Positions 1,681 to 62,378 of a stretch of DNA of 64,000 nt are shown here, one piece after another. Each line of letters opens with the position of its first letter. Position 1 is the first letter of the stretch. The translations under genes and the position numbers were made by a program. The notes under the pieces were generated by a model. It saw nothing but the letters and a program-made list of their open reading frames with translations, did not search any database and was not told where the DNA came from. This DNA is from a virus, in IMG/VR virus record IMGVR_UViG_3300011116_001125, positions 1 to 64,000 of that record. One strand, given 5' to 3'.

Positions 1681-1696
1681 TACCTAGGAGGCTGAC

Positions 1697-2095: not shown

Positions 2096-2106
2096 AAGAG
2101 ACGATA

Positions 2107-2895
2107 ATGACTCGACCCCCTTCCTCAGTAACTAGGACTGGTGCGTATGAGCCCTTTAACTTGCAGGTGGCACGGGGTCAAATTCCGTGGCACCAAAGTA
2201 TCGTTGTTTTTGGTTACAACTCTGACGTAGACACAAGTGTGGAAACTGTTTGGCCTTACGGCGGTATTCTTCCTTTTCCCAACAATGCTTTGCAGATGTC
2301 TGTTAGCTCAGATAACACTAACGACACAGCAGCAGGGACAGGCGCTAGAACCGTTTATATTCAAGGGCTGAACGCTAATCACGATACGATCAGCGAAACA
2401 GTTTCTTTAAATGGTCAGACTGCCGTACTTACGGCAAACTCTTATCTACACATAAATCAAGCCTATGTTGCAACCGCTGGGTCATTAAACAGCGCCGCAG
2501 GTAATATTTACTTTGGAACAGGCGCTTTAACTTTAGGCGTTCCAGCAACCGTTTATGATATCATTCAATACGACTATAACACCAGAGTTACTGGAAGTTA
2601 TACTATTCCATCTGGCTACACCGGATACTTAGAACAGGGCTTGTTTTCTTCTGGACAGGCTGGCGGTTCTAACGCTGTAACCGGACGTCTTATGACACGC
2701 GGTACGGATAATATTCGTAGGACAGCAGCGATTGTTACGCTAAATAATGGTGCTGCTGACTATGCGTTTGAGTATCCAGTTGTTATACCAGAAAAAACAA
2801 CTATTGAAGCTCAGGCCGTTGGCTCCTCAACAAACAACGCCTGCTCTAGCATGTTTATTATTGTTCTCATTAAAAATGACGCGGGGACTGCGTGA
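2107..2895 (+). CDS. Putative virion structural protein, 262 aa (copy A)
   Basis: A β-rich protein rich in Tyr, Thr, Ser and Gly with few charged residues; the N-terminus reads MTRPPSSVTRTGAYEPFNLQ. It follows the previous gene by 11 bp and its TGA overlaps the next ATG (TGATG), so translation is probably coupled. It is likely a head or tail surface protein by position and composition. The copy at 60103 contains a stretch of roughly 200 bp with almost no nucleotide change, unlike its flanks. Confidence 0.6.
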   Translation: MTRPPSSVTRTGAYEPFNLQVARGQIPWHQSIVVFGYNSDVDTSVETVWPYGGILPFPNNALQMSVSSDNTNDTAAGTGARTVYIQGLNANHDTISETVSLNGQTAVLTANSYLHINQAYVATAGSLNSAAGNIYFGTGALTLGVPATVYDIIQYDYNTRVTGSYTIPSGYTGYLEQGLFSSGQAGGSNAVTGRLMTRGTDNIRRTAAIVTLNNGAADYAFEYPVVIPEKTTIEAQAVGSSTNNACSSMFIIVLIKNDAGTA

Positions 2896-3179
2896 TGGCT
2901 AAGGGCATGGGCATAAAAACTTCGGTAAAATCAGGCAACTTTCGCCCCACAAAGGCAGGGGCGGGAATGACTGAAAAAGGCGTAAAAGCCTTCCGACGTG
3001 CCAATCCTGGATCAAAGTTAAGCACCGCAGTCACAGAAAAAAGTCCAACAGGAAAGCGCGCAGCACGTAAAAAATCGTTCTGTGCGCGTTCTGCTGGACA
3101 AATGAAAATGTTTCCTGAAGCTGCTAAAGACCCCAACAGCCGCCTTCGGCAAGCGCGTAAGCGTTGGAGGTGCAAATGA
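2895..3179 (+). CDS. Small basic Cys-containing protein, DUF6321-like (copy A)
   Basis: 94 residues, very rich in Lys and Arg. The second half (VTEKSPTGKRAARKKSFCAR, then a KDPNSRLRQARKRWRC ending) matches my recollection of the DUF6321 signature found in many phage genomes. The function of that family is not known; basic charge and two Cys suggest nucleic-acid or metal binding. The ATG at 2895 overlaps the upstream TGA by one base, which I prefer to the GTG three bases earlier. It ends in an ATGA overlap with the next gene. Confidence 0.65.
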   Translation: MAKGMGIKTSVKSGNFRPTKAGAGMTEKGVKAFRRANPGSKLSTAVTEKSPTGKRAARKKSFCARSAGQMKMFPEAAKDPNSRLRQARKRWRCK

Positions 3180-3454
3180 TTATAGATCTGCAAATGCTTT
3201 GGAATGGCCTTTTAACTCTTGTGTTGCTCCCGCTTGCTTGGATACTCGTGTATTTAAACACACGCATTACTGAAGCGGAAGAAAAATCGGCAACAACGTT
3301 TGACCGTATTTGGAAATCAATAGCAGAACACCGCGAAGATATTCCAAAAACCTACGTTACTAAAACCGACCTGTTGAATACTCATAACCAAATCATGAGT
3401 CGCTTTGATCGGTTAGAAGAAAAAATCGACCGCATTACGGGGATAGGCAAATGA
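3176..3454 (+). CDS. Small membrane-anchored coiled-coil protein (copy A)
   Basis: 92 residues: an N-terminal transmembrane helix at about residues 8-26 (LLTLVLLPLAWILVYL) and a charged, heptad-like C-terminal half ending DRLEEKIDRITGIGK. The ATG at 3176 sits in an ATGA overlap with the preceding stop and is preceded by TTGGAGG. The layout resembles small lysis accessory or haemolysin-XhlA-type proteins but with the membrane segment at the N-terminus; a function is not assigned. Confidence 0.65.
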   Translation: MIIDLQMLWNGLLTLVLLPLAWILVYLNTRITEAEEKSATTFDRIWKSIAEHREDIPKTYVTKTDLLNTHNQIMSRFDRLEEKIDRITGIGK

Positions 3455-3621
3455 AAGTACGTGCTAAAAATTCATTGCCTGTTCCGCGTGGTTCAAAAAT
3501 ACGCACGCCTTCTTTCGGGCTTAAAAAGGGTGGTGCTTTGGGTAAAACTAAAAAGCCCAAAGTTGGTATCGCGATTATGATCGCTGTTGGTAAGCCTAGA
3601 AAAGGAATGCGCAATGGTTAA
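3451..3621 (+). CDS. Small basic protein, 56 aa (copy A)
   Basis: A short reading frame beginning MKVRAKNSLPVPRGSK and ending GKPRKGMRNG. Its ATG overlaps the stop of the upstream gene (ATGA) and its end overlaps the next start by eight bases. Conserved in copy B (61447) with mostly synonymous changes, which supports it as a real gene. About a quarter of the residues are Lys/Arg. Function unknown. Confidence 0.65.
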   Translation: MKVRAKNSLPVPRGSKIRTPSFGLKKGGALGKTKKPKVGIAIMIAVGKPRKGMRNG

Positions 3622-4048
3622 GAAAATTTCTGAGTATGGCGGCATGGAAAAGTACTCTTCCAAAAAAGCTATGGGTAAACACGAAGGTAAAGAATCTTCA
3701 CGTGCAGAAGCAGGAGAAAAGTCAATGGCTATGAAGAAACGCGGCGGGGGCATGGCTACCCGTGGTATGGGTGCTGCTCTTAAAAAGGGGGGCAAGGTCA
3801 TGAAAAAAGCTATGGGGGGTGGTGTTAATACCCGTAATCCACCTGCACTTGGTAAACTTCCTATAAGACCCGTTCCTCGGGAACTTTATACTGGTGGTTC
3901 TAAAAATTTTGATGAATCCACAGGTACTTATCGTGGTCGTCCCGGTGGTGGCATGAATTACATTGGTGGTTCTAAAAAATTTGATGAAAGTGTAGGCCCT
4001 CGCAGAATGAAAAAAGGCGGCATGGCTAAAGGTCGTAAGGGCTGCTAA
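3614..4048 (+). CDS. Lys/Gly/Met-rich protein with GGS-FDES repeats (copy A)
   Basis: 144 residues, strongly basic, with several GGGM/KKGG runs, two copies of a short unit of the form GGS-x-x-FDES (residues about 93 and 117) and the C-terminus KKGGMAKGRKGC. The start at 3614 overlaps the preceding gene. The same unit occurs in the product of the gene at 4387. In copy B (61610, 148 aa) the segment order differs and only one such unit remains. Probably a virion-associated DNA-binding or internal protein; that is an inference from charge and position. Confidence 0.6.
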   Translation: MVKKISEYGGMEKYSSKKAMGKHEGKESSRAEAGEKSMAMKKRGGGMATRGMGAALKKGGKVMKKAMGGGVNTRNPPALGKLPIRPVPRELYTGGSKNFDESTGTYRGRPGGGMNYIGGSKKFDESVGPRRMKKGGMAKGRKGC

Positions 4049-4050
4049 CG

Positions 4051-4209
4051 ATGAAAAAAGAGGTTTGGGCCAAGCCACGTCCTAAAGGGTTGGGTAAGCC
4101 CAAGCCTCTTACTTCTAAGCAGAAAAGTTCTGCTAAAAAAGCGGCTAAGGCTGCGGGTCGGCCTTATCCTAATCTTGTAGACAATATGCGTGCTGCGAGG
4201 AAAAAATGA
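4051..4209 (+). CDS. Small basic protein, 52 aa (copy A)
   Basis: Reads MKKEVWAKPRPKGLGKPKPL, then a Lys/Ala-rich stretch ending NMRAARKK. Two bases after the upstream stop, and its TGA overlaps the next ATG (ATGA). Almost unchanged in copy B at 62056, two residues differing. No known family; strongly cationic. Confidence 0.65.
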   Translation: MKKEVWAKPRPKGLGKPKPLTSKQKSSAKKAAKAAGRPYPNLVDNMRAARKK

Positions 4210-4385
4210 AAAAGCCTACTAAAGCGCAAGCTAAAATTCGTACGGTGCTGCATGAGTTTAAGGTAGGTAAACTTCACTCGGGCAGCAAAAAAGGTCCAAC
4301 AGTTAAAAGTCGCCAACAGGCGATCGCTATTGCTCTTTCGCAAGCAGGTAAGTCGATGAGCAAAGCAAAGCGCAGGAGTAAGTAA
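4206..4385 (+). CDS. DUF6496-like small protein (copy A)
   Basis: 59 residues. The core HEFKVGKLHSGSKKGP followed by a QQAIAIALSQAGKS segment matches the DUF6496 signature known from many phage and some bacterial genomes (function unknown). The start overlaps the upstream stop (ATGA). The counterpart at 62211 has 55 residues; the C-terminal tail is where they differ. Confidence 0.7.
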   Translation: MKKPTKAQAKIRTVLHEFKVGKLHSGSKKGPTVKSRQQAIAIALSQAGKSMSKAKRRSK

Positions 4386-4386
4386 G

Positions 4387-5001
4387 ATGCCAAATACAAT
4401 GATGGGTTATGGTGGAGTTCAACCCCAACGCGCAGCCACTCCCGCTATGCCTATTCGGCAAGATTATGCAGGCCCCCTGCCTCAAGGTGGTGGCGGTCTT
4501 GGTAGAGGTGTTCCTCTTCCGCCAAAATTAGGTGGAGGCATGAATTACATCGGTGGCTCTCCCAATTTTGATGAAAGCCTTGGCGCATATCGTAACCCAC
4601 TAAAACCAATGCCTGATGGCGGGTTTATGATTCCCGGTCCGAATGATTTTAGCATGGGTCCAGGAGGTGCGATGACTAGGTATACTCCACCCGCACCCCC
4701 CACGCTTGGAATTACCCCTATCCGTGGTCCTTATGATGTACCTCCAACGTTTGGGGTTACTCCTACTCAAACGCCTGACCAAATGCAGGCTTTGCGTAAT
4801 GCTCATCTTGCGCAACAACAAGCGCAGTTGTTGATGGCGCAGCAACAAGCGCAACTATCTGCTCCTTTGGCCTATCGTCAAGCTGTGGCGCAACAACAGT
4901 ACATCCCGCCTAATGCAGGCATCGCTGCCTTGCCTATGAACCCTGCAATGATGCAACGTTTAGGTACTATCGCAAGCCTTGCAGGCGGAGTACGCAGATG
5001 A
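4387..5001 (+). CDS. Pro/Gln-rich variable virion-region protein (copy A, 204 aa)
   Basis: Low-complexity protein: a Gly/Pro-rich N-terminus carrying a GGGMNYIGGSPNFDESLGAY unit, a Pro/Thr-rich middle, and a Gln/Ala-rich stretch (about residues 138-170). Only the first dozen residues (MMGYGGVQPQ) and the last 20 (RLGTIASLAGGVRR) are shared with its counterpart at 62380, which has 288 residues and a different repetitive centre. It ends in an ATGA overlap with the next gene. Function unknown. Confidence 0.6.
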   Translation: MPNTMMGYGGVQPQRAATPAMPIRQDYAGPLPQGGGGLGRGVPLPPKLGGGMNYIGGSPNFDESLGAYRNPLKPMPDGGFMIPGPNDFSMGPGGAMTRYTPPAPPTLGITPIRGPYDVPPTFGVTPTQTPDQMQALRNAHLAQQQAQLLMAQQQAQLSAPLAYRQAVAQQQYIPPNAGIAALPMNPAMMQRLGTIASLAGGVRR

Positions 5002-5354
5002 AAAAACCTGTAAAGCGCCGCAAGTATGCTGACGGTGGGGATGTGCAAAATCCTGCCGCACCCCCTATCGGCACAACAGATCTTTCTGGTGCAGGGGCAC
5101 AAGCGCAAAACCAAGCGCAGCCGCCTTCTAGTCCGGGTCCGGGACAAACCTCTCCGTATTATTCGCCTTCAGACTATGGTACACCTGTCGGCGCGATGAA
5201 TACGCAGGGCAGTAGTTTGTACGTTCAAGACCGTATGTCAGGCCAAGGTGCAACGGCGCAGGGCTACGCAAAAGGCGGCATGGTCAACAAACGTGGTAAA
5301 GTTCGTGGTTGCGGGGTGGCTAAACGTGGGCTCACAAAAGGCAAGGTGTACTGA
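4998..5354 (+). CDS. Small protein with basic Gly/Cys C-terminal tail (copy A)
   Basis: 118 residues: a basic start (MKKPVKRRKYADGGDV), a Pro/Gln/Ser-rich middle, and the tail GGMVNKRGKVRGCGVAKRGL plus TKGKVY. The next gene product ends with nearly the same tail, so they share a short C-terminal module. Translation is coupled to the upstream gene by ATGA. Conserved at 63243. Likely a virion-associated protein; family unknown. Confidence 0.6.
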   Translation: MKKPVKRRKYADGGDVQNPAAPPIGTTDLSGAGAQAQNQAQPPSSPGPGQTSPYYSPSDYGTPVGAMNTQGSSLYVQDRMSGQGATAQGYAKGGMVNKRGKVRGCGVAKRGLTKGKVY

Positions 5355-5356
5355 TC

Positions 5357-5632
5357 ATGATAAAGCGTAAGAAAAAGTATGACCTACCTGTGCCACAATA
5401 CGATACTCCTTCCGGAGAAGAACAATATAAGAAAATACTAGAAGAAAATGCAAAGGCTTTGGATAAAACCAAAAGCACAGGTGATGTTACTTCTGAAGAG
5501 GAAGAAACGTTGCGTGAGACCATGCGTAAACAGGTTGAGGAAAGCAAGTACAAGCGCGGCGGCATGGTAAAGAGCAAAGCGCGTGGTTGCGGCGTAGCTG
5601 TTCGTGGCTTGACCAAAGGCAGGATGTATTGA
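5357..5632 (+). CDS. Small acidic/basic protein with the same Cys tail (copy A)
   Basis: 91 residues. Residues 1-65 are a charged helix-forming region (ETLRETMRKQVEESKYKRGG); the tail KARGCGVAVRGLTKGRMY repeats the module of the upstream protein. It begins two bases after the upstream stop. Conserved at 63602 (92 aa). Function unknown. Confidence 0.6.
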   Translation: MIKRKKKYDLPVPQYDTPSGEEQYKKILEENAKALDKTKSTGDVTSEEEETLRETMRKQVEESKYKRGGMVKSKARGCGVAVRGLTKGRMY

Positions 5633-5633
5633 T

Positions 5634-5906
5634 ATGGCAAAAGGTTCTGCTTCACCTACAGGGTTAATGAATATTGGTATGTGGGAAGATTCTCCTGCTG
5701 ATATTCGTGGGGATACCGCTATCAAAAAGCGTATGGGCAAGCAGGGCGTGTCAAAAGAAGCCTATGAAAGTTCTGCTGAAGACATCAAGCATGACATTCA
5801 AAAGTCTTCAAAAGGTATCGGTATGAAACGCGGTGGCGCGGTATACATGCCTTCTGAAAGCAAGGGTAAAAGCCGTAAACATACGCGGGGTTGCAAAATC
5901 TGCTGA
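5634..5906 (+). CDS. Small basic protein, 90 aa (copy A)
   Basis: Begins MAKGSASPTGLMNIGMWEDS and ends with a Lys/Arg-rich tail HTRGCKIC, a variant of the Cys-containing tails of neighbouring proteins. The stop overlaps the ATG of the following adaptor gene (TGATG). The same gene is cut by the right end of the window at 63882. Confidence 0.6.
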   Translation: MAKGSASPTGLMNIGMWEDSPADIRGDTAIKKRMGKQGVSKEAYESSAEDIKHDIQKSSKGIGMKRGGAVYMPSESKGKSRKHTRGCKIC

Positions 5907-6592
5907 TGGCTTATTCAGGCACAAAAACATTTGAACTCGACGTAGCCGAATATATCGAAGAGGCTTACGAGCGGTGCGGTATTGAAGTTCGTACAGGTTA
6001 CGATCAACGTACTGCACGCCGGAGTTTAAATCTTTTGTTGGCAGAATGGGCCAACCGTGGGCTCAACCAGTGGACGATTAAGCAACAAAGCATTACGATG
6101 ACGGTAGGTGTCAATGAGTACCCATTGGAAGCCTACGACATTGACGTTTTGGATGCTGTTTGCCGTTTTGCTCAAGGTGTTGATACTCAAAATCAACAAG
6201 ATCTAACAGTTGACCGTATCAGCCGTGAAGTTTATTTGGATATTCCTGCCAAGTTGCGGCGTGCGCGTCCTGTGCAGTATTTTGTAGATAGGCAAATAAC
6301 GCCCATCATCAAAGTATGGCCTACGCCAGATCAAACGTATTATTTGGTTATCAATAAACTTGTTCGGCTTGATGATGTGAATAGCTCTACTAATACGCTG
6401 CAACTGCCGTTTAGATTTTATCCTTGTTTGGCGGCAGGCTTGGCCTATTATATTTCTTTGAAAAAAGCACCTGAGCGCACACAAATGCTTAAGGCTATTT
6501 ACGAAGAAGAGTTTGATAAAGCCGCCGCTGAAGACCGTGATCGCGCTTCCTTGATGCTTACCCCCATGAGAAATTATTATGGTGTGGTGTAA
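5906..6592 (+). CDS. Putative head-tail adaptor (podovirus type)
   Basis: 228 residues, starting MAYSGTKTFELDVAEYIEEA. A predicted helical bundle with a central β-region, followed by helices rich in Tyr/Arg/Glu. This layout and the first 50 residues (IEEAYERCGIEVRTGYDQRT, then LLAEWANRGLNQWTI) are like the adaptor/head-completion proteins of podoviruses (P22 gp4 and T7 gp11 class) that bridge portal and tail. The 5906 ATG is preferred because it overlaps the upstream stop by one base. Family assignment rests on memory of related phage proteins. Confidence 0.6.
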   Translation: MAYSGTKTFELDVAEYIEEAYERCGIEVRTGYDQRTARRSLNLLLAEWANRGLNQWTIKQQSITMTVGVNEYPLEAYDIDVLDAVCRFAQGVDTQNQQDLTVDRISREVYLDIPAKLRRARPVQYFVDRQITPIIKVWPTPDQTYYLVINKLVRLDDVNSSTNTLQLPFRFYPCLAAGLAYYISLKKAPERTQMLKAIYEEEFDKAAAEDRDRASLMLTPMRNYYGVV

Positions 6593-6594
6593 GT

Positions 6595-6900
6595 ATGACG
6601 AAATTTGCAAATGGTACTCAGTCCAAAGCTATCTGCGATAGGTGCGGGTTTAAGTACTATTACCTCCAATTAAAAAAGGAGTGGACAGGGTTTAGAACCT
6701 GTATGGAGTGCTGGGAACCTAAGCACCCACAGCTAGACCCTATCTATCCCCCTACTGAGCCGCAGGCTTTGTATCAACCGCGACCTGATGTTATTATCAA
6801 TTACGATGCACCTGTGGCGGATGAAGTGTTTCCATTTTTGCCAATTAGTCTGTTACAGGGCATTACTCAAATTGGTATAGTGACTGTGGAGATTACATAA
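6595..6900 (+). CDS. Zinc-ribbon-like small structural-region protein
   Basis: 101 residues with CDRCGFKY at the N-terminus and CMECWEPKHPQ about 20 residues later, a CxxC...CxxC ribbon that could hold one zinc. The C-terminal half is Pro-rich and hydrophobic. It lies between two adaptor-like genes and is one base away from an overlap with the next start, so it belongs to the head-tail joining block. Similar small zinc-ribbon proteins occur beside adaptor genes in related phages; role unknown. Confidence 0.6.
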   Translation: MTKFANGTQSKAICDRCGFKYYYLQLKKEWTGFRTCMECWEPKHPQLDPIYPPTEPQALYQPRPDVIINYDAPVADEVFPFLPISLLQGITQIGIVTVEIT

Positions 6901-7538
6901 TGGGTTGGACCTATACCACTCTCACAACAGCAATCAAGGACTTTGTTCAGTCGTCTGAAACAACGTTCAATAACAATTTGAACGTTTTTATTCAAAACGC
7001 GGAAGAACGCATCTTTTTCTCGGTTAGTTTGGAATATTTTCGTAAGAACCAAACAGGTAACCTAACTTCGGGTAATCAATATCTAGCAAAGCCTTCTGAT
7101 TTTATGTCGGCCTATGCCTTATCGGTTACTGTTAGTGGTGAAAAAGTGTTCCTTTTGAATAAGGATGTTGAGTATCTACAAACTTATGATCCCACTGGTG
7201 CAACGGGTTCACCTAAGTATTACGGGTATTTTGACATTAACAACTTCATTATTGCCCCTGTTCCGGACAGTAACTATGCTGTTGAAATCCATTATTACTA
7301 CCGTCCAGAAAGCCTTGTGACACAAACAAGTGGTACATGGATTAGTAACAATGCGCAGCAAGCTCTGCTTTACGGCAGCTTGGTAGAGGCATATACCTTT
7401 CTTAAGGGCGAGCCTGATTTGTTAAACCTATACAATCAACGGTTTGTAGAATCGCTCACTCGCTTGAAAAACTTCGGTGAGGGTCTTGAAAACGTTGACG
7501 CTTACCGTGATGGTCTTGTTAGAGTTAAGGCTAACTAA
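6900..7538 (+). CDS. Adaptor/tail-tube-like protein (SU10 adaptor type)
   Basis: 212 residues. Begins MGWTYTTLTTAIKDFVQSSE with an Asn-rich helix (FNNNLNVFIQNAEERIFFSV), then a β-domain (YYGYFDINNFIIAPVPDSNY, IHYYYRPESL) and a C-terminal helical pair. This order is that of adaptor proteins of the phage SU10/phiEco32 type, which attach the tail nozzle to the portal. Overlaps the upstream stop by one base. Inferred role: second head-tail joining protein. Confidence 0.65.
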   Translation: MGWTYTTLTTAIKDFVQSSETTFNNNLNVFIQNAEERIFFSVSLEYFRKNQTGNLTSGNQYLAKPSDFMSAYALSVTVSGEKVFLLNKDVEYLQTYDPTGATGSPKYYGYFDINNFIIAPVPDSNYAVEIHYYYRPESLVTQTSGTWISNNAQQALLYGSLVEAYTFLKGEPDLLNLYNQRFVESLTRLKNFGEGLENVDAYRDGLVRVKAN

Positions 7539-7828
7539 TGTTTACACAAGCACTCAATACGGGCACTTTTAAAGTAGATGTAATGACTTCTAGTAATGGA
7601 GGTCACCCGCCTGAGTTTTGGGCAAAACGTGCGGCAGACCATATTGTAAAAGTTGCCGAAACTGCCCATCCCGCTATTCGCGATCAGGCTTTGGCCTTTC
7701 GAGATCAGGTAGAACACGTTATACTTCATCACATGAAACAAGCTATTTCGTGTGATCGGACCACGGTGGGCTCATACGTAGAAGAGGCAGGCCATCCTAA
7801 ACTGGCTGAACTTATAAGGAGGCCGTAA
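7538..7828 (+). CDS. Conserved small phage protein, 96 aa
   Basis: Has a GGHPPEFWAKRAADHIVKVA segment and AHPAIRDQALAFRDQ helix seen in a widespread family of small phage proteins encoded beside tail genes. Function unknown. Both ends overlap neighbouring genes by one base, so it is translated within the tail gene block. Mostly helical and without membrane segments. Confidence 0.6.
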   Translation: MFTQALNTGTFKVDVMTSSNGGHPPEFWAKRAADHIVKVAETAHPAIRDQALAFRDQVEHVILHHMKQAISCDRTTVGSYVEEAGHPKLAELIRRP

Positions 7829-8286
7829 TGGCGTTTACTGGTAACTATATGACAACGTCGTTCAAGCTCGACCTCTTGAACGGTAAGCAGGCCCTTGGTA
7901 CAACGGTTATTCGTGCTACAACAACAGCCGATACATATAAGATCGCGTTGTATACATCTTCTGCAACTCTTGGCGCAGCAACTACTGCGTACAGCGCGAC
8001 TAACGAAATTACTAATACCTCAGGCACAGCATATATAGCGGGTGGTCAAACGCTCACGGGCGCTACAACTACATCTTCAGGCACAACAGCCTATGCTGAT
8101 TTTGCAGATGCTTCATGGTCCTCTGCTTCATTTACTGCCCGTGGTGCGTTGATCTATAACTCAACGCAGTCAAATAGCTCAGTGGTAGTGCTTGATTTCG
8201 GTTCCGATAAAACGGCTTCCGCAGGTACTTTTACGGTTGTGTTCCCTACCAATGATGCTTCAAATGCTATCATAAGGATTGCTTAA
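7828..8286 (+). CDS. Putative tail/virion β-protein, 152 aa
   Basis: Thr/Ser/Ala-rich with the N-terminal YMTTSFKLDLLNGKQALGTT and a regular β-alternation, as in small tail or head-fibre proteins of aquatic podovirus-like phages. It starts at the stop of the preceding gene. Within the tail/fibre block, so a structural role is likely. No catalytic motifs. Confidence 0.55.
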   Translation: MAFTGNYMTTSFKLDLLNGKQALGTTVIRATTTADTYKIALYTSSATLGAATTAYSATNEITNTSGTAYIAGGQTLTGATTTSSGTTAYADFADASWSSASFTARGALIYNSTQSNSSVVVLDFGSDKTASAGTFTVVFPTNDASNAIIRIA

Positions 8287-30560: not shown

Positions 30561-30591
30561 CTACCCACCTTGCCATAGAAAGGCGCAAGAT

Positions 30592-31164
30592 ATGTATTAC
30601 GTGATTGCTGAAGGCCCCCCTGCTTCACAGGGCAAGCCTTATCACATTTTAAAGTTCAAAACGCTACGTGACATGAAAGAGTGCCCTTTGATCGACAAAG
30701 GCACCATTGTGTATAGCGAAGTTACCCAATTAGACGAGTTTTGTACAAAGGCCGAGTTGGAAGCCATTTGGCACACTCTTAACCTGAGTTCAAAGGCACC
30801 GCAGAACAAGCGCATTACCGCAGGGCTTCTGCATGAGTATGTTGTGGAAAACGCAACGGTTTGGAAACAAGGAGACACCAAAATGACTGAAGTTAAAGTT
30901 TCGGCACCTGCCGCTAAAACTGCTCCGAAAGAGAAAAAGGAAAGTGCCCGCACACGTATCCCCAAGGAAGCAAAAATCGTAGTGCTTAAGCAGTTTGAAG
31001 GTCGCGCCGGAACCACGCGTGCCGAAGCCTTAAAAATTGCTCTTGCCGCACCAACGGTTGAAAAGGCCCTTGCCGATATGCGTGCCGCAGGATTTACAGC
31101 GGCAGTTGCCTCATCGACCATTAAGTTCGCCATTGCCGAAAAACTTATAACGGTAAAGATCTAA
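30592..31164 (+). CDS. Two-part hypothetical protein, 190 aa
   Basis: Start at 30592 behind AGAAAGG. Residues 1-100 are α/β (MYYVIAEGPPASQGKPYHIL); then a Lys/Ala-rich linker (about 105-125); residues 125-190 form a basic helical domain (RIPKEAKIVVLKQFEGRAGT) with a winged-helix-like pattern that could bind DNA. An ATG at 30883 with a good AAGGAGA could give the C-terminal part alone. Function unknown. Confidence 0.5.
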   Translation: MYYVIAEGPPASQGKPYHILKFKTLRDMKECPLIDKGTIVYSEVTQLDEFCTKAELEAIWHTLNLSSKAPQNKRITAGLLHEYVVENATVWKQGDTKMTEVKVSAPAAKTAPKEKKESARTRIPKEAKIVVLKQFEGRAGTTRAEALKIALAAPTVEKALADMRAAGFTAAVASSTIKFAIAEKLITVKI

Positions 31165-31165
31165 C

Positions 31166-32020
31166 ATGAACGGCGAAGGGCAGTTCTTTTATTGGATAAA
31201 TGAGCGCCATTCTATCTATTTGTCTAAGGCGGCGGGTAATCCAAAACCTTGGACAAGTGATAGTATTTTCCAACAGTACAAGTTTACGAACCCTTTTAGG
31301 GAGCTAGACAAAACAACTGTATGGATGCGCGAACATTTGACCAATCCCAACAAAAATGCCCCCATAGCCGAAACCCTGTTCAACTGTTGCGTGTTCCGCA
31401 TGTTTGGCACGATGGAAATGGGCGAGGCTTTGGGTTGGATAAAGCAGTGGGATCCTGAATATGTGAAAAGTCTTGCCCGTGGTCGGTTGAGCATGGGGCT
31501 TAAAGTATTCACAGGGGCATACATTATCACTAACCAAGGGTTGAAAAACCCAAAGGAAGAGGTAGTATGCGATATGTTTCTGACCCCCGTATGGAAAGCC
31601 CGTGATCAGTTAGCCGAGTGCATTGAGCAAACAAATAGTTTGGAAGCACTGCACAAGGAACTTGGCAAGTTTGCAGGATGGGGCGGCGGGGGCTTTATGG
31701 CCTACGAAGTAGTAACCGATCTTAACCATACTAGCGCCATGCCAGAGCCAGTTGATAGGTTTACGTGGGCCAATGCAGGTCCAGGAGCAAAGCGGGGTCT
31801 TAACCGTTTGCATGGTCGCCCCTTGGATAAAGCCAATGGCGTAGACTGGAATAGCGAAATGCAACAGCTATTGGAGCTCGCCCCAAAATACTGTGACCCC
31901 GAAGTATTAGCTCAAGTTGTAGATATGCGCACGATAGAGCATAGCCTGTGCGAATGGGATAAGTACCAACGGGTACTACTCGGCCAAGGTAAACCACGAA
32001 GCCTGTACAAAGGAATTTAG
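31166..32020 (+). CDS. HMUDK_hel / aGPT-PPlase-like DNA base modification protein
   Basis: 284 residues. The start GEGQFFYWINERHSIYLSKA, GNPKPWTSDSIFQQYKFTNP, FRELDKTTVWMREHL is the pattern of the helical domain shared by 5-hydroxymethyldeoxyuridine DNA kinases and the α-glutamyl/putrescinyl-thymine pyrophosphorylase group (PF18723). These act on hydroxymethyl-uracil in phage DNA, activating it for further substitution. No separate P-loop domain is fused here, so this protein would be the helical/pyrophosphorylase type only. It begins a tight run of five genes with a radical SAM enzyme, a glycosyltransferase-like protein and a thymidylate synthase homologue, which strongly supports a role in DNA hypermodification. 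Function itself is inferred. Confidence 0.7.
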   Translation: MNGEGQFFYWINERHSIYLSKAAGNPKPWTSDSIFQQYKFTNPFRELDKTTVWMREHLTNPNKNAPIAETLFNCCVFRMFGTMEMGEALGWIKQWDPEYVKSLARGRLSMGLKVFTGAYIITNQGLKNPKEEVVCDMFLTPVWKARDQLAECIEQTNSLEALHKELGKFAGWGGGGFMAYEVVTDLNHTSAMPEPVDRFTWANAGPGAKRGLNRLHGRPLDKANGVDWNSEMQQLLELAPKYCDPEVLAQVVDMRTIEHSLCEWDKYQRVLLGQGKPRSLYKGI

Positions 32021-32021
32021 T

Positions 32022-33020
32022 ATGTCATACGTACAAGACCCACCCTACTGCATCCAAGTAGAATTAACTGAAGGATGCAACTTGGGTTGTAGCTTCTGCG
32101 GGTTGCAACACATTCGTGATAACGGTGCCAATGGCCCCGAAGATAAACACGGTAAAGCCTCCTTTATGAAGTTTTTAACCGTGGAAAATGCGGAGGTTAT
32201 TGCAAGCCGTATAGCCGAAGCTAAATGGACCCCCCGTATTGAGTTTGCCATGCACGGCGAGCCAACCATGAACCCTAATTACATTGAAATTGTAGGGGTG
32301 TTCCGTAAGAATTTACCGAAAGCCAGTTTGCAGTTGACCAGTAATGGCGGCGGGCTACTCAAAGGCCAAGGGTTCAGTAGCAATATCAACGCGCTTATGG
32401 AAGCGGGCCTGAACATACTTAGTTTAGATAACTACGATGGCATACGTATCGTTGATAAAATTTTGCAAGGATACAATGGGCCACATCGCGTATGGAAATA
32501 CCCGCAAGAAATTATGGGCAACCCTCATCGCCGCCGCAAGCCGCATGAACACGATATTGTAGTTATTCAAGATATTGAAGCCGCTACCAAAGGCAATCAC
32601 AGTATACTCAGCAACCACACAGGCGGGAGCTTTCCGCTTAATGATAAAATGGCAGGGAAGCGTTGTGCAAAGCCCTTCCGTGAACTTAGCGTGCGTTGGG
32701 ATGGCAACGTAGCGATGTGCTGTAACGACTGGCCCGGACGCTACAAAATCGGCAACTTGTTAGAAACAGCAATAAGTGAGCTTTGGCTAGGTGAAGCCTT
32801 CCAAGCCGCTAGACAAGCCTTGTATCATGGACAACGGACATTCACACCTTGTAAAGGTTGTGACCATGTAAGTTACCGTCCAGGATTGTTGCCTGATGCC
32901 AAGGGTAAAGAAACATTACCAAAGCCTGATGCGCAAACGTGGGCAGTAATAGAAAAATACACAAGTGGTGAGCCTTACACTCCAAAAGTAAAAAGGCCGT
33001 GGGATGGAGTAATTAAGTGA
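32022..33020 (+). CDS. Radical SAM enzyme with SPASM-type C-terminus
   Basis: 332 residues. The radical SAM iron-sulphur motif is Cys19-x3-Cys23-x2-Cys26 (EGCNLGCSFCGLQH), followed by an HGEPTMNP motif (the GGE-type SAM-binding loop). The C-terminus has further Cys (215, 233, 234, 277, 280; KRCAKPF, AMCCNDW, CKGCD) as in SPASM/twitch domains with auxiliary clusters. It starts two bases after the preceding gene and overlaps the next by four. Radical SAM enzymes are known in predicted phage thymine hypermodification systems; the substrate here (a modified base in DNA or its nucleotide) is inference. Queuosine-type QueE is unlikely, given the SPASM region and lack of other queuosine genes. Confidence 0.85.
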   Translation: MSYVQDPPYCIQVELTEGCNLGCSFCGLQHIRDNGANGPEDKHGKASFMKFLTVENAEVIASRIAEAKWTPRIEFAMHGEPTMNPNYIEIVGVFRKNLPKASLQLTSNGGGLLKGQGFSSNINALMEAGLNILSLDNYDGIRIVDKILQGYNGPHRVWKYPQEIMGNPHRRRKPHEHDIVVIQDIEAATKGNHSILSNHTGGSFPLNDKMAGKRCAKPFRELSVRWDGNVAMCCNDWPGRYKIGNLLETAISELWLGEAFQAARQALYHGQRTFTPCKGCDHVSYRPGLLPDAKGKETLPKPDAQTWAVIEKYTSGEPYTPKVKRPWDGVIK

Positions 33021-33979
33021 ACGTCGATCTATTTTATCTTAGCCCTAACCCGTATGGTGGATGGGTTACCTTCACCGCGCATTTGGTTGAGGCTTTGAAA
33101 ACGGTTGGTATCAAACCAAACTTGTATCGTATTAGGCCGCGCAGTGAAAAGAAACCACGGCCCTTTGGTTACGATCTGCATTACACAAACATCAGTTTGC
33201 AAGATGCTTTGCGTAGCCCGAACAAGAAGTTGATTGTAGCCGCCGCTAAAAACTTTGCGGAGGAAACTTCGGCGCTGTACTCAGCGGGTGCCGCGCTTGT
33301 AGTGCATGATCCTACCGAAATCAAAAACCTACCACCGTTAGATGGCAAGATCATTGTTATTCGGCAGATTGGTTTAACGTATCTGCCAAAAGCCGTGTTC
33401 ATACGGCACCCGTATCAACGTAGGCCCGAGTATGAAATATTCAACCGTACAACACGGGCTATCAGCACTTCGCGTATTGACTTTGACAAGCATACCGCGC
33501 TGATACTTGATGCAAATAGGTTAGTGCCCGATGAAGTTAAGTGCAGGATATATGGTTTTGAAAACCGCATCTACACACGATTTAAGATAGTACCTCATTA
33601 CCCTGAATGGGAACAAAGCAAAGCGGCTTATCCCCGCAGTAAAGAAGCCGCGTTTAAGTTGCTTTCTTACGCGCAACTTGCCGTGGATATGAGCCTTATT
33701 AAAGGTGATGGCGGTGGTACTCAATACACAACACTGGAAGCATGGGATGCAGGTGCAGTTCCGGTTATCCAACGTGCGTGGCTAATGCCCAAAGATGATA
33801 TGGTTGAAAACCAAAACTGTTTTGCAGTAGGTAACGCCGATGAGTTAGCCGCATTGTTATCAGACGTAGGGAATACTTCATACTTGGATAACTACCGCGA
33901 GTATGGATATAAGCAGTTGGCGCTCCACCATCCCAAGGTTATTGGTGAACGCTATAAAGCCGTTTTAGAAGCTATTTGA
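33017..33979 (+). CDS. GT-B type glycosyltransferase-like protein
   Basis: 320 residues with a two-lobed GT-B layout: NPYGGWVTFTAHLVEAL at the start (glycine loop of GT4 enzymes), and in the C-terminal lobe GGGTQYTTLEAWDAGAVPVI and ENQNCFAVGNADELAALLSD, the nucleotide-sugar-binding side. It overlaps the radical SAM gene and is followed by the thymidylate synthase-family gene after 17 bp. Could glycosylate a hydroxymethylated or otherwise activated base in phage DNA. Start codon GTG at 33017. Confidence 0.7.
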   Translation: MNVDLFYLSPNPYGGWVTFTAHLVEALKTVGIKPNLYRIRPRSEKKPRPFGYDLHYTNISLQDALRSPNKKLIVAAAKNFAEETSALYSAGAALVVHDPTEIKNLPPLDGKIIVIRQIGLTYLPKAVFIRHPYQRRPEYEIFNRTTRAISTSRIDFDKHTALILDANRLVPDEVKCRIYGFENRIYTRFKIVPHYPEWEQSKAAYPRSKEAAFKLLSYAQLAVDMSLIKGDGGGTQYTTLEAWDAGAVPVIQRAWLMPKDDMVENQNCFAVGNADELAALLSDVGNTSYLDNYREYGYKQLALHHPKVIGERYKAVLEAI

Positions 33980-33996
33980 TAATAGTAGGGCATACC

Positions 33997-34986
33997 ATGT
34001 ACACAATAAAGGTTAGAAACGTTTCTGAGGCCCTCTACGTTGGTCTAGGTGCTATCAAAAGTACGGGGGCTAAAATACAAAGCCGCGCAGGTGAAACCCT
34101 TGAAATGCCTGCTCCTGTATGCACAACGTACAGTCACCCTATGGAGCGTGTGTTGTTCTACCCGCAACGTGACGCTAACCCGTTTTTCCACTGCTTAGAA
34201 GCACTGTGGATGTTGGCAGGGCGCAACGATGTGGAGTTCCTTAAGCGTTACAACAAACGCATGGAAACATATAGCGATGGCAATGATATATTGCACGGAG
34301 CTTATGGGCACAGATGGCGTAATTGGTTTGGCATTGACCAGTTGGATATCGCTGTAAAACGGTTGAAAAAATACCCCAACGATAGACGCACCGTCGTGCA
34401 AATGTGGGATAGTGAAAATGATTTGTATGAAGGTAACCAGTTAAAAGATATCCCTTGTAACACGCAAATATACTTTAAGGTGCGTGAAGGGCGTTTGAAC
34501 ATGATGGTTACATGCCGTAGTAATGATATGATATGGGGCGCGTATGGCGCAAACGCAGTTCACTTTTCAATGTTACAAGAATACGTTGCCGCTAGAGTAG
34601 GTGTGCCCGTAGGGACGTATCACCAAGTGAGCGATAGCTTCCATGCTTATACGGACGTGCTTACTAAGTTGGATAACTTGGTTGCCGATTATGACCCCTA
34701 CTATGAGTTCGATTACTTGGTGCAACCTTTGGTAACGGATGCTGCCAAGTTTGATGAAGAACTTCGTAGGTTTTTTGATTCATCGCCACTTACACGTGTC
34801 TACCGCAATATGTTTCTTGGCAATGTAGCCGACCGTATGCGTGCGGCCCATGCACTATGGCGCAGTGGCGATATGGACGAAGCCCTGAGTATGGCGGGTG
34901 CTATCACTGCGCCGGATTGGCGTAAGGCTTGTGTAGAATGGTTGGAACGCAGGAGAAAGAGCGATGAGCAAGACATTAGAAAATAA
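33997..34986 (+). CDS. Thymidylate synthase-family protein, hydroxymethylase candidate
   Basis: 329 residues. Family motifs: HGAYGHRWRNW, DRRTVVQMWD, IPCNTQIYF with the catalytic Cys154, CRSNDMIWGAYGANAVHFSM and YHQVSDSFHAY. Three features depart from classical ThyA: Asn instead of His after the catalytic Cys, a one-residue longer nucleotide loop (GAYGAN), and a different C-terminus without the conserved ThyA end. This subgroup occurs in phages with modified bases as dUMP or dCMP hydroxymethylase. The loop Asn favours dUMP, hence 5-hydroxymethyl-dUMP as product. Start at 33997. Its cluster position supports hydroxymethylase; plain thymidylate synthesis remains possible. Confidence 0.75.
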   Translation: MYTIKVRNVSEALYVGLGAIKSTGAKIQSRAGETLEMPAPVCTTYSHPMERVLFYPQRDANPFFHCLEALWMLAGRNDVEFLKRYNKRMETYSDGNDILHGAYGHRWRNWFGIDQLDIAVKRLKKYPNDRRTVVQMWDSENDLYEGNQLKDIPCNTQIYFKVREGRLNMMVTCRSNDMIWGAYGANAVHFSMLQEYVAARVGVPVGTYHQVSDSFHAYTDVLTKLDNLVADYDPYYEFDYLVQPLVTDAAKFDEELRRFFDSSPLTRVYRNMFLGNVADRMRAAHALWRSGDMDEALSMAGAITAPDWRKACVEWLERRRKSDEQDIRK

Positions 34987-35278
34987 TTTGGCTGAGTTAG
35001 CAAAAGCCGATGTAGAAGGTTTAATGCGTGCGCAAATCAGCTATGGCAATAGTTGGAAGCGTAGAGGTGGCGTTGGTGCGTTTATGATGTTAGCCCGTAA
35101 GTGGGACCGCATAAGCAATCAATGCAAGAAGGTTGGTTGGGATGTATTCAAAGCCATAGAAAATGACCCAAGTGATACAGGTATTTTAGATGACATACGT
35201 GACCTACGCAGATACCTTTTGTTAGTACACGAGGAAATGCAACGTAATGGATATAAAGATCCCGGATCACTTGATTGA
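34964..35278 (+). CDS. Nmad1/DUF1599-like nucleotide-modification-associated protein
   Basis: 104 residues, all helical. ISYGNSWKRRGGVGAFMMLA, RKWDRISNQ and DDIRDLRRYLLL follow the pattern of nucleotide modification associated domain 1 (DUF1599), which is repeatedly found beside thymidylate-synthase homologues and hypermodification genes in phages. Enzymatic activity is not established; a MazG-like nucleotide-handling role has been suggested for the fold class. Overlaps the preceding gene by 23 bases. Confidence 0.65.
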   Translation: MSKTLENNLAELAKADVEGLMRAQISYGNSWKRRGGVGAFMMLARKWDRISNQCKKVGWDVFKAIENDPSDTGILDDIRDLRRYLLLVHEEMQRNGYKDPGSLD

Positions 35279-35462
35279 GGCCGTGTGTGAGTGTGGCAAA
35301 GAAAAGCGCACGCTCACCATGCGTAAACTAAAGAACAAATGGCCCTTTTGTCAGTGCCGTCAAGCAATGAAAGTTTATGATGAGCAACCTATGGATGAAC
35401 AAGGAGTGGGTGATGCCAGAGGCATTGCCGAGCTTCTCCGACGCGGCAGAAATATCCATTGA
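35247..35462 (+). CDS. Small zinc-finger-like protein overlapping PolA start
   Basis: 71 residues with CECGKEKRTL and FCQCRQ, a CxC...CxC pair that could bind zinc. It overlaps the upstream gene by 32 and the PolA gene by 50 bases, which is unusual, but a GAGGA ribosome site precedes the ATG at 35247. Function unknown. Confidence 0.45.
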   Translation: MDIKIPDHLIEAVCECGKEKRTLTMRKLKNKWPFCQCRQAMKVYDEQPMDEQGVGDARGIAELLRRGRNIH

Positions 35463-37314
35463 CCTTGAAACATACGACCCCCGCCTAACTACACATGGCA
35501 GTGGATGGGCACGTAAGGAAGGTGAAATTATTGGCGTTGCCGTAGCTGTTGATGGCGAGGCTATGTATGTTCCTGTGCGCCATAAAAACGGGCAGAATAT
35601 TGATTGGCGACGTGTGCATTATTGGTTGAAAACAATATGCGGAAACCCTAACCGTGATTATGTATTTCACAACGCCATGTACGACGTTGGTTGGTTATGG
35701 TCCGAGGGTATTGAAATCAAAGGCCGCATTGTTGATACAATGGTTGCCGCGCCGTTAATCGATGAGAACCGTTATAGTTACTCGCTCAATGCGCTTAGTA
35801 AAGACTACTTAGGCGAAACTAAAAATGAATACCTGCTAAAAGAAGCCGCCGCTCAATTTGGCGTGAACCCAAAAGCAGGGATGCACTATCTACCCGCACA
35901 GTTCGTTGGGCCTTATGCTGAGCAAGACGCTGCCCTTACACTGAAACTATGGCAACACTTCAAAAACATTATCATTCGCGATGAGTTGCAGGATATTTTT
36001 GACCTTGAGTTGCGCGTTCTACGTGTGTGTATTGAAATGCGTAAGAAAGGTGTGCGCGTAGATGTTGAGCGTGCCGAGCAAATAAAGCGCGATTTAGAAA
36101 AGCGTGAGCAAGCTATATTAGGTGGTTTGAAAAAGGAATATGGCGTAGCGGTCGATATCTGGGCGGCGGCGAGTATTGCCAAAGCGTTTGATGCCGTAGG
36201 CTTGGAATATGAGCGCACGGAAAAAACCAATGCGCCGAGCTTTACCAAAAACTTTCTTGCTAACCATCAACACGCACTGCCCCGAGCAGTTGTGCAAGCG
36301 CGTGAGCTCAACAAAGCACGCACTACGTTTATTGATACGATATTAGGCCATCAGCATAATGGGCGTATCCATGCTGAAATGCACCAGTTGCGCAGTGATG
36401 ATGGCGGTACGGTTACAGGGCGATTCAGCTACAGCAACCCGAACTTGCAACAAATTCCCGCACGTAACCAAGAAATCGGGCCACTGATACGTGGCTTGTT
36501 TTTACCCGAAGAAGGTGAGTTGTGGGGCGCGTTTGACTACAGTAGCCAAGAACCACGCATCGTTGTTCATTATGCTTCGTTGCTTGATTTCACAGGTGCC
36601 GCAGACTTTGTTGAACAGTACGCAAAAGATGCACGCACGGACTTCCACCAACTTGCGGCGGATATTGTTGGTGTGCCCCGCAAGAAAGCCAAAGACATCA
36701 ATTTGGGTTTGTTCTATGGCATGGGGCAGAAAAAGCTAGCCGACCAGTTAGGCTTGGAGCTTGAAGATGCCAAGGAACTGTTTACCTTGTATCACAACAA
36801 AGTGCCTTTCGTGCGGCAGTTAAGTGATTACGCAATGAACCGTGCGAATAGCAGAGGGATTATTCGTACTTTATTAGGTAGGCGTTGCCGCTTTGATATG
36901 TGGGAACCTATGAAGTACGGTTTGCACAAGCCCTTGCGTCACGCAGAAGCGTACGCGGAACATGGCCCACAGATTAAACGTGCGTTCACTTACAAAGCAC
37001 TTAATCGATTAATCCAAGGCAGTGCTGCAGACCAAACGAAGTTGGCTATGGTAACAGCGTACGAAGCTGGATACTTGCCACTGATACAAGTGCATGATGA
37101 GTTGGATTTTAGTGTGGCAAGTGAACTTGATGCAAAGCGCATCGCCGAAATAATGGAAAGCTGTGTGGGCCTTGCTGTACCGAGCGTAGTGGATGCGGAG
37201 TTCGGTCTAACATGGGGCGAAGCAAAGCAAACATTTACCGATAAACCTTGGACCCGTGGTTTGAAGCATAACCACTCAACAATGGAAACAAACAATGATC
37301 ACACAGCTGAATAG
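35413..37314 (+). CDS. polA: DNA polymerase, family A
   Basis: 633 residues. 3'-5' exonuclease domain at the N-terminus (IDLET, Asp17/Glu19; later AEQDAALTLKL), then the polymerase domain: GRFSYSNPNLQQIPARNQ, motif A DYSSQEPR (Asp375), motif B KDINLGLFYGMG (Lys427), motif C VHDELDF (His561, Asp562). No 5'-3' exonuclease domain. The residue matching E. coli Pol I Phe762 is Leu431. The ATG at 35413 behind AAGGAGTGGGTG is preferred over two upstream in-frame ATGs inside the previous gene. Replicative polymerase of this phage. Confidence 0.95.
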   Translation: MPEALPSFSDAAEISIDLETYDPRLTTHGSGWARKEGEIIGVAVAVDGEAMYVPVRHKNGQNIDWRRVHYWLKTICGNPNRDYVFHNAMYDVGWLWSEGIEIKGRIVDTMVAAPLIDENRYSYSLNALSKDYLGETKNEYLLKEAAAQFGVNPKAGMHYLPAQFVGPYAEQDAALTLKLWQHFKNIIIRDELQDIFDLELRVLRVCIEMRKKGVRVDVERAEQIKRDLEKREQAILGGLKKEYGVAVDIWAAASIAKAFDAVGLEYERTEKTNAPSFTKNFLANHQHALPRAVVQARELNKARTTFIDTILGHQHNGRIHAEMHQLRSDDGGTVTGRFSYSNPNLQQIPARNQEIGPLIRGLFLPEEGELWGAFDYSSQEPRIVVHYASLLDFTGAADFVEQYAKDARTDFHQLAADIVGVPRKKAKDINLGLFYGMGQKKLADQLGLELEDAKELFTLYHNKVPFVRQLSDYAMNRANSRGIIRTLLGRRCRFDMWEPMKYGLHKPLRHAEAYAEHGPQIKRAFTYKALNRLIQGSAADQTKLAMVTAYEAGYLPLIQVHDELDFSVASELDAKRIAEIMESCVGLAVPSVVDAEFGLTWGEAKQTFTDKPWTRGLKHNHSTMETNNDHTAE

Positions 37315-37819
37315 AATTTGGCATTTACGCAGGGCAGGATACATTAAGCGTTATCATACAGTGCCTACAGTTGGGGATAGTCAAACCGTGAGTGCGCATT
37401 CTTGGGGCGTTGCAACACTAATCAATGAAATATGGCCCGATGCCAGTAAGCAAGTATTACTCGCTAGTTTGTATCACGATGTTGCCGAAGTGTTGATAGG
37501 TGATACCCCTGCAACAGTGAAGTGGAAGTACGCCGATTTTGCCGCCGCAATCGAAAAAGTAGAAAAAGAAGCGGAAGAAGAATTAGAACTGGAATTTGCG
37601 CTATCCCTGAGAGAGAAGCGCCAGTTGAAAATTGCCGATTTGTTAGAGCTGATGCTTTACGCAGGCGAACAAATAAAGATAGGAAACATGCACTTTAAAG
37701 AAGTACTGAATAACGGAAAAGAATACTTGCAAGTGAAATATGGAAATACCCCTGAGTTTAACGAAGCCTTCCCCATGTTCAACTATGCGCTAACAAGGCT
37801 TAGTCATTCTACCATGTAG
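37295..37819 (+). CDS. YfbR-like HD-domain 5'-nucleotidase
   Basis: 174 residues. HD-domain residues His35 (VSAHSWGV), His61-Asp62 (LYHDVAEVLIGD), Glu65 and Asp70 followed by TPATVKW match the deoxynucleotide 5'-nucleotidase YfbR group. Such enzymes dephosphorylate dNMPs; in a phage this could steer nucleotide pools, possibly away from an unmodified base. It overlaps the PolA end by 20 bases. Confidence 0.85.
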   Translation: MITQLNRIWHLRRAGYIKRYHTVPTVGDSQTVSAHSWGVATLINEIWPDASKQVLLASLYHDVAEVLIGDTPATVKWKYADFAAAIEKVEKEAEEELELEFALSLREKRQLKIADLLELMLYAGEQIKIGNMHFKEVLNNGKEYLQVKYGNTPEFNEAFPMFNYALTRLSHSTM

Positions 37820-37856: not shown

Positions 37857-38318
37857 GTGAACATATTCGCCTTACACACTGATCCTGTAATTGCGGCGCA
37901 ATGGCATTGCGATAAGCACGTTGTCAAAATGCCGTTAGAAACTGCTCAGATGCTTTGCACGGTGCATCACCATTACGGCTTTGATGCGCCCTATAAGCCT
38001 GCTCATGCTAACCATCCTTGTACTGTGTGGGCGGGCCAAACGATTGAAAATTACAAGTGGCTCTGGCGCTTAGGCATTGCCCTATGCGAGGAGTATACCC
38101 ACCGATACAACAAAACTCATGCCTGCGAGCAAGTGTTAGCGATAGTGCGTTGCGCTCCACCTACACTCACGGCACGGGGTTACACAAAATTCGCGCAGGC
38201 CATGCCTGACGAATACAAGCACCACGATACACAAATAGCTTATCAACAATATTATCGCGGTGCAAAATACCAGTTGGCTGTGTACACGAAACGTGAACCA
38301 CCGCCGTTCATGCAATAG
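37857..38318 (+). CDS. Conserved phage protein with CDKHVVKM signature, 153 aa
   Basis: GTG start behind AGAAAGGA. Starts MNIFALHTDPVIAAQWHCDK followed by HVVKMPLETAQMLCTVHHHY; many His, Trp and Tyr residues. I recall the same pattern (hCDKHVVKM-x-LE-x-AQ-x-L, and later KWLWRLGIALCEEYTHRY) in many T4-like and aquatic phages as a conserved protein of unknown function. The His/Cys content suggests a metal or nucleotide site. Confidence 0.65.
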   Translation: MNIFALHTDPVIAAQWHCDKHVVKMPLETAQMLCTVHHHYGFDAPYKPAHANHPCTVWAGQTIENYKWLWRLGIALCEEYTHRYNKTHACEQVLAIVRCAPPTLTARGYTKFAQAMPDEYKHHDTQIAYQQYYRGAKYQLAVYTKREPPPFMQ

Positions 38319-61617: not shown

Positions 61618-62056
61618 GAAGGAAACCTCAATGGTTATGAAAAAACGTGGTGGTGGCATGGCTACCCGTGGTATGGGCGCGGCTTATAAAAAAGGCGGTC
61701 CAATTTTAGAATACGGTGGCAAGGAAAAATATTCTTCCCGTGCTTCAATGAAAAAGCATGAGGGTAAAGAGTCTATGAGCGCTGAGGCAGGCGAAAAGGC
61801 TATGCGCGGTGGCGGTATTGCTACCCGTGGAAAAGGTATTGCCCTTGCAGGAGGTGGCATGATGCCAAAGAAACCTGCGGTAAACCCATTTGGCCCCCGT
61901 GGTGGGCGTCCTGCTCCGAAAAAACTTTACATTGGTGGTTCTCGAAGGTTTGATGAAAACACTGGTTCTTATGGAAACGGTAGACCAGCAATCGATCCTT
62001 TACCTACCCGTAGAGCAAAAGGCGGGATGGCTAAAGGTCGTAAGGGCTGCAAGTAA
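61610..62056 (+). CDS. Lys/Gly/Met-rich protein (copy B)
   Basis: 148 residues; counterpart of 3614-4048 with rearranged segments. MKKRGGGMATRGMGAAYKKG comes first here and EYGGKEKYSS second, the reverse of copy A. One GGS-x-x-FDE unit instead of two. Ends KGGMAKGRKGCK. Confidence 0.6.
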   Translation: MAKKETSMVMKKRGGGMATRGMGAAYKKGGPILEYGGKEKYSSRASMKKHEGKESMSAEAGEKAMRGGGIATRGKGIALAGGGMMPKKPAVNPFGPRGGRPAPKKLYIGGSRRFDENTGSYGNGRPAIDPLPTRRAKGGMAKGRKGCK

Positions 62057-62214
62057 TGAAAAAAGAGGTTTGGGCCAAGCCACGTCCTAAAGGGTTGGGT
62101 AAGCCCAAGCCTCTTACTTCTAAGCAGAAAACTTCTGTTAAAAAAGCTGCTAAGGCTGCGGGGCGTCCTTATCCTAACCTTGTTGATAATATGCGTGCTG
62201 CGAGGAAAAAATGA
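62056..62214 (+). CDS. Small basic protein, 52 aa (copy B)
   Basis: Counterpart of 4051-4209 with two substitutions (QKTSVKK for QKSSAKK). One-base overlap with the upstream stop, ATGA overlap downstream. Confidence 0.65.
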   Translation: MKKEVWAKPRPKGLGKPKPLTSKQKTSVKKAAKAAGRPYPNLVDNMRAARKK

Positions 62215-62378
62215 AAAAGCCAACAAAAGCACAAGCTAAAATTCGTACTGTGCTACACGAGTTTAAGGTGGGCAAACTTCATTCGGGCAGCAAAAAAGGT
62301 CCAACTGTTAAAAACCGCCAACAGGCGATTGCTATAGCTCTTTCGCAAGCTGGTAAGTCGAAAGGCAGGAGTAAATAA
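62211..62378 (+). CDS. DUF6496-like small protein (copy B)
   Basis: 55 residues; HEFKVGKLHSGSKKGP core unchanged, C-terminal tail four residues shorter than copy A (AGKSKGRSK). Confidence 0.7.
   Translation: MKKPTKAQAKIRTVLHEFKVGKLHSGSKKGPTVKNRQQAIAIALSQAGKSKGRSK

Follow-up and report, generated by a model that had tools for sequence, protein, structure and literature searches.

The radical SAM gene (rSAM) in the middle of this viral DNA encodes a predicted BtrN-like twitch enzyme and lies in an operon for DNA-base hypermodification. The explanation that best accounts for it, which we think probable though far from assured, is that it is an optional tailoring enzyme acting on a sugar that has been placed on 5-hydroxymethyluracil (hmU) in DNA. 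The window, meaning the whole stretch of DNA that was analysed, is 64,000 nucleotides long. DNA hypermodification protects many phages against restriction, CRISPR and defences that use base-specific glycosylases. Its amino-acid branch, at thymidine, is known to include radical SAM enzymes, and its sugar branch glycosyltransferases. A role for the enzyme in DNA modification is well supported, and we infer its substrate and chemistry. The case draws on the family, cysteine set and fold of the enzyme, on its operon, on a constant association with predicted glycosyltransferases that includes a natural fusion, and on the missing amino-acid pathway.

The open reading frame belongs to the radical SAM superfamily, with a CxxxCxxC motif and matches over cut-off to Pfam Radical_SAM (PF04055, aa 13-135, E 1.4e-8) and Pfam SPASM (PF13186, aa 215-281, E 2.3e-12). 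The initial annotation had drawn attention to this motif and to five cysteines near the C-terminus, and both are real: C19, C23 and C26 make up the first, and C215, C233, C234, C277 and C280 the second. Conservation was assessed over 115 homologue rows, which are redundant, and in a separate 23-member alignment. All of these cysteines are invariant over the 115 rows except C215, which is kept in 114, so the set of eight is unlikely to be a product of chance. The same annotation took the C-terminal set for SPASM-type auxiliary clusters, and this was half right. The PF13186 match is there, but that model spans one-cluster and two-cluster forms alike, and a full two-cluster SPASM domain is ruled out by the cysteine count (five C-terminal cysteines, not the seven-Cys motif). 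The spacing C-x17-CC-x42-C-x2-C, with no cysteine past residue 280, is that of a one-cluster, BtrN-like twitch domain, and alignment and conservation together point to four of these cysteines as ligands of a single predicted auxiliary cluster.

Table 1. Coordinates in the window of the rSAM gene, its motifs and the neighbouring genes.
Feature	Coordinates	Strand	Basis
HMUDK_hel (helical subunit of 5-hmdU DNA kinase), lone, without P-loop partner	31166..32020	+	PF18723, E 1.7e-49
rSAM / twitch enzyme	32022..33020	+	332 aa, ATG start, uninterrupted ORF
CxxxCxxC motif (C19/C23/C26), predicted ligands of the SAM-binding [4Fe-4S] cluster	32076..32099	+	kept in 115/115 rows
Predicted twitch (half-SPASM) domain, aa 215-281	32664..32864	+	PF13186, BtrN alignment, conservation
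GT-B (GT4-like) glycosyltransferase	33017..33979	+	AF2 fold; no Pfam match
TS homologue, pyrimidine-hydroxymethylase type	33976..34986	+	phrog_5131, E 1e-111
Family A DNA polymerase	35377..37314	+	tblastn: annotated DNA polymerase A in relatives of up to 56% identity
YfbR-like HD nucleotidase	37295..37819	+	PF12917, E 5e-16

The closest fold to the AlphaFold (AF2) model of the rSAM (pLDDT 83, pTM 0.86) is that of BtrN (PDB 4M7T), with a Z score of 25.6 and an rmsd of 2.6 Å over 238 aa at 24% identity. The runner-up, ChlB, is far below at Z 15.3, and the sugar-acting radical SAM enzymes SpeY and DesII align at Z 14.4 and Z 13.6. BtrN performs the two-electron oxidation of 2-deoxy-scyllo-inosamine and contains one fully Cys-ligated auxiliary cluster (PMC9012708). 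It resembles the rSAM in combining a radical SAM core with a one-cluster twitch domain whose cysteines align, and its substrate is sugar-like; it differs in that this substrate is a small free aminocyclitol with no link to DNA. When residue correspondences are counted off the printed alignment, C215, C233, C277 and C280 fall on the four C-terminal cysteines of BtrN. The extra invariant cysteine, C234, is aligned with Phe188, which directly follows the cysteine aligned to C233, and His199, found in 111 of the 115 homologue rows, is aligned with Arg152, an active-site residue of BtrN. These two substitutions suggest a substrate or chemistry unlike that of BtrN, and the change at Arg152 led us to reject an identity with BtrN proper (2-DOIA dehydrogenase). 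A viperin-type antiviral was also rejected, as the PADLOC pVip match is weak (E 3e-5, to the radical SAM core) and viperins reach Z 12.7 or less against 25.6 for BtrN. In the neomycin epimerase NeoN a cysteine, Cys249, donates hydrogen (PMC10991966), which is a possible parallel to Cys234. NeoN and the twitch dehydrogenase SpeY are radical SAM enzymes that act on sugars, as proposed here, although their substrates are antibiotics.

The gene had previously been described as lying among DNA-modification genes with no precursor-peptide gene adjacent, and we agree on both counts. The genes of 30583-34986 are consecutive, with gaps of +1, +1, -4 and -4 bp, and the last gap of the module is -23 bp, which leaves no precursor-peptide gene between the operon genes. 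The gapless order is HMUDK_hel, rSAM, GT-B glycosyltransferase, TS homologue; the glycosyltransferase had gone unnamed in the initial annotation. HMUDK_hel is approximately 36% identical to ORF055 of phage M6, and a PDB sequence search with it gave no match. Neither its usual partner, the P-loop kinase PF18748, for which the control phages are positive, nor M6 gp54 has a match in the 75.6 kb record, and the lone protein may serve as a subunit for DNA or hmU recognition or for site selection. The AF2 model of the glycosyltransferase (pLDDT 92) has the two-domain GT-B fold and matches GT-B/GT4 glycosyltransferases at Z 22-25 (HepE, Z 25.1), as well as the T4 alpha-glucosyltransferase in complex with HMU DNA (Z 22.7); the modelled fold predicts an enzyme that puts a sugar on hmU in DNA.

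The TS homologue is 47% identical to its counterpart in the thymidine-hypermodifying phage M6. It is closer to hydroxymethylases than to thymidylate synthase, its best solved relative in the PDB being the CMP 5-hydroxymethylase MilA. In the TS family an asparagine marks the uracil type, and the homologue has Asn, as does thymidylate synthase, where MilA has Asp; dUMP is thus its likely substrate, and we predict a dUMP hydroxymethylase. The family A DNA polymerase downstream probably incorporates hmdUTP. The HD nucleotidase, whose profile matches the HD protein of phage Lydia (E 1.3e-41), is predicted to be a nucleotide-pool partner of the TS homologue, which such a nucleotidase also adjoins in Mesyanzhinovviridae. 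A small gene at 34964-35278 was rejected as a gp1.7-like nucleotide kinase, its profile having no match to the phage Lydia protein annotated as such. Just past the module, 37857-38318 contains a weak pyrimidine-dimer DNA glycosylase domain (PF03013, E 5e-6).

A first viral scan found 33 loci with relatives of the rSAM, and a second scan, run with an alignment against viral metagenomes, found at least 190 relatives in its first 600 candidate stretches. Among 50,697 GenBank phage records there was a single weak match, and none when a more distant family member was the query; species genomes gave two matches in 84,980. Judged from these counts, the family is in essence a viral one that sequenced isolates hardly ever carry. 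Just one close match came from the species genomes, a contig of Actinomadura rayongensis that carries the rSAM, TET/JBP and the glycosyltransferase type, and is possibly a prophage.

To describe the neighbourhood we used 40 divergent loci, with rSAM identity below 80% and 4 kb or more of sequence to either side. The initial annotation had proposed co-occurrence with the TS homologue as a check, and this is borne out in 35 of the 40; the partner that is never missing, however, is a predicted glycosyltransferase, present in all 40, with four weak calls and with profiles that were seeded from rSAM-neighbouring genes. Two of the weak calls (L032 and L096) are TAGT-like with Pfam E values of 0.001-0.002, below cut-off, and two (L008 and L095) are of GT-B type in family c20, whose Pfam match is marginal (E 0.025). 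In the redundant set of loci, the 130 glycosyltransferase ORFs are all found no farther than 4.5 kb from the rSAM; the 491 kb of sequence outside that distance contain none. These glycosyltransferases belong to unlike families, both GT-B types and the GT-A-like TAGT (PF20691, TET-associated glycosyltransferase), and one locus carries a natural fusion of TAGT and rSAM of 579 aa (L028:3324-5060). HMUDK_hel is found in 36 of the 40 loci and TET/JBP in three, while two have neither the TS homologue nor TET/JBP. TET/JBP, rSAM and TAGT are consecutive in L024, the same three kinds of gene are held by L029 and L032, and L018 combines TET/JBP and rSAM with a GT-B type. HMUDK_hel tracks the TS route: of the five loci that have no TS homologue, four also lack HMUDK_hel (35/1 versus 0/4, Fisher p 5e-5), which is not seen where TET/JBP stands in for the TS homologue. 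This suggests a role in choosing among hmU sites when incorporation of hmU is general.

A search in the reverse direction, by glycosyltransferase family, found the rSAM in 17 of 36 divergent full loci and not in the other 19, most of which retain HMUDK_hel with the TS homologue or TET/JBP. Glycosyltransferases thus occur without the rSAM but the rSAM always occurs with a glycosyltransferase, as expected if it acts after that enzyme. The most telling example is provided by two loci, L126 and L146 (about 5107-8046), where an HMUDK_hel-glycosyltransferase-TS operon of 81-83% nucleotide identity to the window has no rSAM. The match ends with HMUDK_hel at 32019 of the window and resumes at 32991, so that nucleotides 32020-32990 of the rSAM are cleanly absent. 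The multiple alignment of the L126 junction misplaces part of it, and by eye the bases that lead up to the start of the glycosyltransferase look like the final, 3' part of the rSAM gene; L126 may therefore have lost the gene. An FkbM-type methyltransferase lies upstream of the operon in L126.

Other genes occupy sister modules of the rSAM. One contains an FkbM methyltransferase (L023), a second a cytidylyltransferase/MannoseP_isomer-like gene (L002:6021-6980) and a third a sulfotransferase-like gene that was read from the sequence by eye and has no significant Pfam match (L015:7304-8008). The last two suggest further sugar tailoring, and the absence of the rSAM from L126 and L146 together with these genes looks, in terms of gene content, like a pattern of interchangeable tailoring.

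The sequence of events that we propose starts with the TS homologue, which would make 5-hydroxymethyl-dUMP that the phage then incorporates into DNA. The kinase-less HMUDK_hel would help to pick hmU sites and the adjacent GT-B enzyme would glycosylate the hydroxymethyl group. The rSAM, dependent on SAM, would then use its 5'-deoxyadenosyl radical to abstract a hydrogen from a sugar carbon. In the version that we prefer because of the fold of the rSAM, the auxiliary [4Fe-4S] cluster would serve to oxidise the sugar radical to a keto sugar, as in BtrN. Epimerisation is a serious alternative, since Cys234 is invariant, adjoins a cluster ligand and recalls the cysteine hydrogen donor of NeoN; the radical would in that case be quenched by hydrogen from Cys234 to give an epimer. 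We lean slightly towards the more specific statement that a virus-borne rSAM family remodels the hmU-linked sugar of glycosylated DNA, the product being a keto- or epi-sugar base not yet described. Glycosyltransferases that act on DNA, TAGT among them, are already known, and TAGT of the T6 type attaches a second sugar (PMC13216743). The proposal has in common with TET/JBP plus TAGT systems and with T-even phages a hydroxymethyl base in DNA that is glycosylated by a GT-B enzyme or TAGT. It differs from them, and from T-even hydroxymethylcytosine, in that the base is predicted to be uracil and the sugar, once attached, would undergo a further radical SAM step.

The co-occurrence itself fits a DNA-linked sugar, a nucleotide sugar or a base equally. 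The initial annotation had suggested a base or nucleotide as the substrate. Its placement of the enzyme in DNA-base hypermodification stands, but the constant predicted glycosyltransferase and the replacement of the TS homologue by TET/JBP in some phages make the sugar on the hydroxymethyl base, not the bare base or nucleotide, the most likely substrate. An action on the base side, in which the CH2OH of hmU would become 5-formyluracil or acquire a new bond at C5-CH2 while the glycosyltransferase uses the product or other hmU sites, is in our view unlikely. BtrN-type enzymes do oxidise alcohols, hmU is an alcohol, and the makers of CH2OH bases, the TS homologue or TET/JBP, are nearly always present. 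An enzyme that consumes the hydroxymethyl group would however compete with the glycosyltransferase, yet a glycosyltransferase is predicted in every rSAM locus and is fused to the rSAM in one, and an rSAM of this kind would need no dependence on a glycosyltransferase at all.

It is also improbable, to much the same degree, that the substrate of the rSAM is a nucleotide sugar or a free sugar, altered before transfer to supply a special donor for the glycosyltransferase. SpeY and BtrN use small free molecules, and the L002 operon holds the cytidylyltransferase/mannose-6-phosphate-isomerase-like gene described above. Against this, very different glycosyltransferase folds (GT-B and TAGT/GT-A) are paired with the same rSAM, the L028 fusion puts the rSAM at the transfer step, and most loci have no nucleotide-sugar synthesis genes nearby.

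A DNA radical SAM isomerase of the amino-acid thymidine pathway, of the type of M6 gp53, is very unlikely, although M6 too has HMUDK_hel, a TS homologue and a radical SAM gene side by side. Thymidine hypermodification in M6 and ViI involves a 5-hmdU kinase, an amino-acid:DNA transferase (ADDT), a PLP enzyme and the radical SAM protein gp53, and radical SAM isomerases in this branch were reportedly described by Lee et al. in 2022. The window shares with these phages a TS homologue predicted to make 5-hmdU, the HMUDK_hel subunit and a radical SAM tailoring enzyme. Unlike them it has a glycosyltransferase in place of the P-loop kinase and ADDT, and its rSAM shows no detectable homology to gp53 beyond the superfamily, hhalign giving a probability of 0.6%. 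In 14 records (that of the window and 13 related ones) the kinase (PF18748) is absent from beside HMUDK_hel and from the record altogether, as is the ADDT (PF18724), while both were detected in the control phages M6 and Sonora. Neither an M6-like PLP enzyme nor an M6-like radical SAM enzyme was found in any locus retrieved through the rSAM. The end of the window repeats its start (57992-61620 matches 1-3624 at 91% identity, with more matches of 62017-62361 to 4012-4356 and 63196-64000 to 4951-5752), and the 75.6 kb record is probably a genome of approximately 58 kb running on into a second strain variant. The record is thus probably a whole genome and the absence of the kinase and transferase is meaningful, so a gp53-type enzyme was rejected as already largely refuted by the missing pathway. 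One further locus (L160:4936-11196) has HMUDK_hel and a GT-B type beside M6-like radical SAM and PLP genes, and may combine the amino-acid pathway with the sugar pathway.

A peptide or protein maturase (RiPP- or anSME-like) is scarcely credible and was rejected: SPASM/twitch enzymes often act on peptides, and ChlB and anSME are among the structural matches at Z 14-15, but BtrN is ten Z units nearer, the gapless operon leaves a precursor gene no room, no conserved small ORF was seen within the module of the relatives, no NCBIfam maturase model is over cut-off for the rSAM, and the rSAM is tied to DNA-base genes across unrelated operons.

In the open-access literature that we searched, no paper dealt with a radical SAM enzyme that works on glycosylated DNA, and one published elsewhere is possible. 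There is a fair chance that the rSAM of the window performs an enzyme chemistry that is new on DNA. The window and L126 carry the same operon, one with the rSAM and the other lacking it, a natural comparison that makes the question directly testable. If the proposal is true, the amino-acid and sugar branches of hypermodification would meet in a radical SAM reaction on a sugar attached to DNA, which would predict DNA bases that have not yet been seen.
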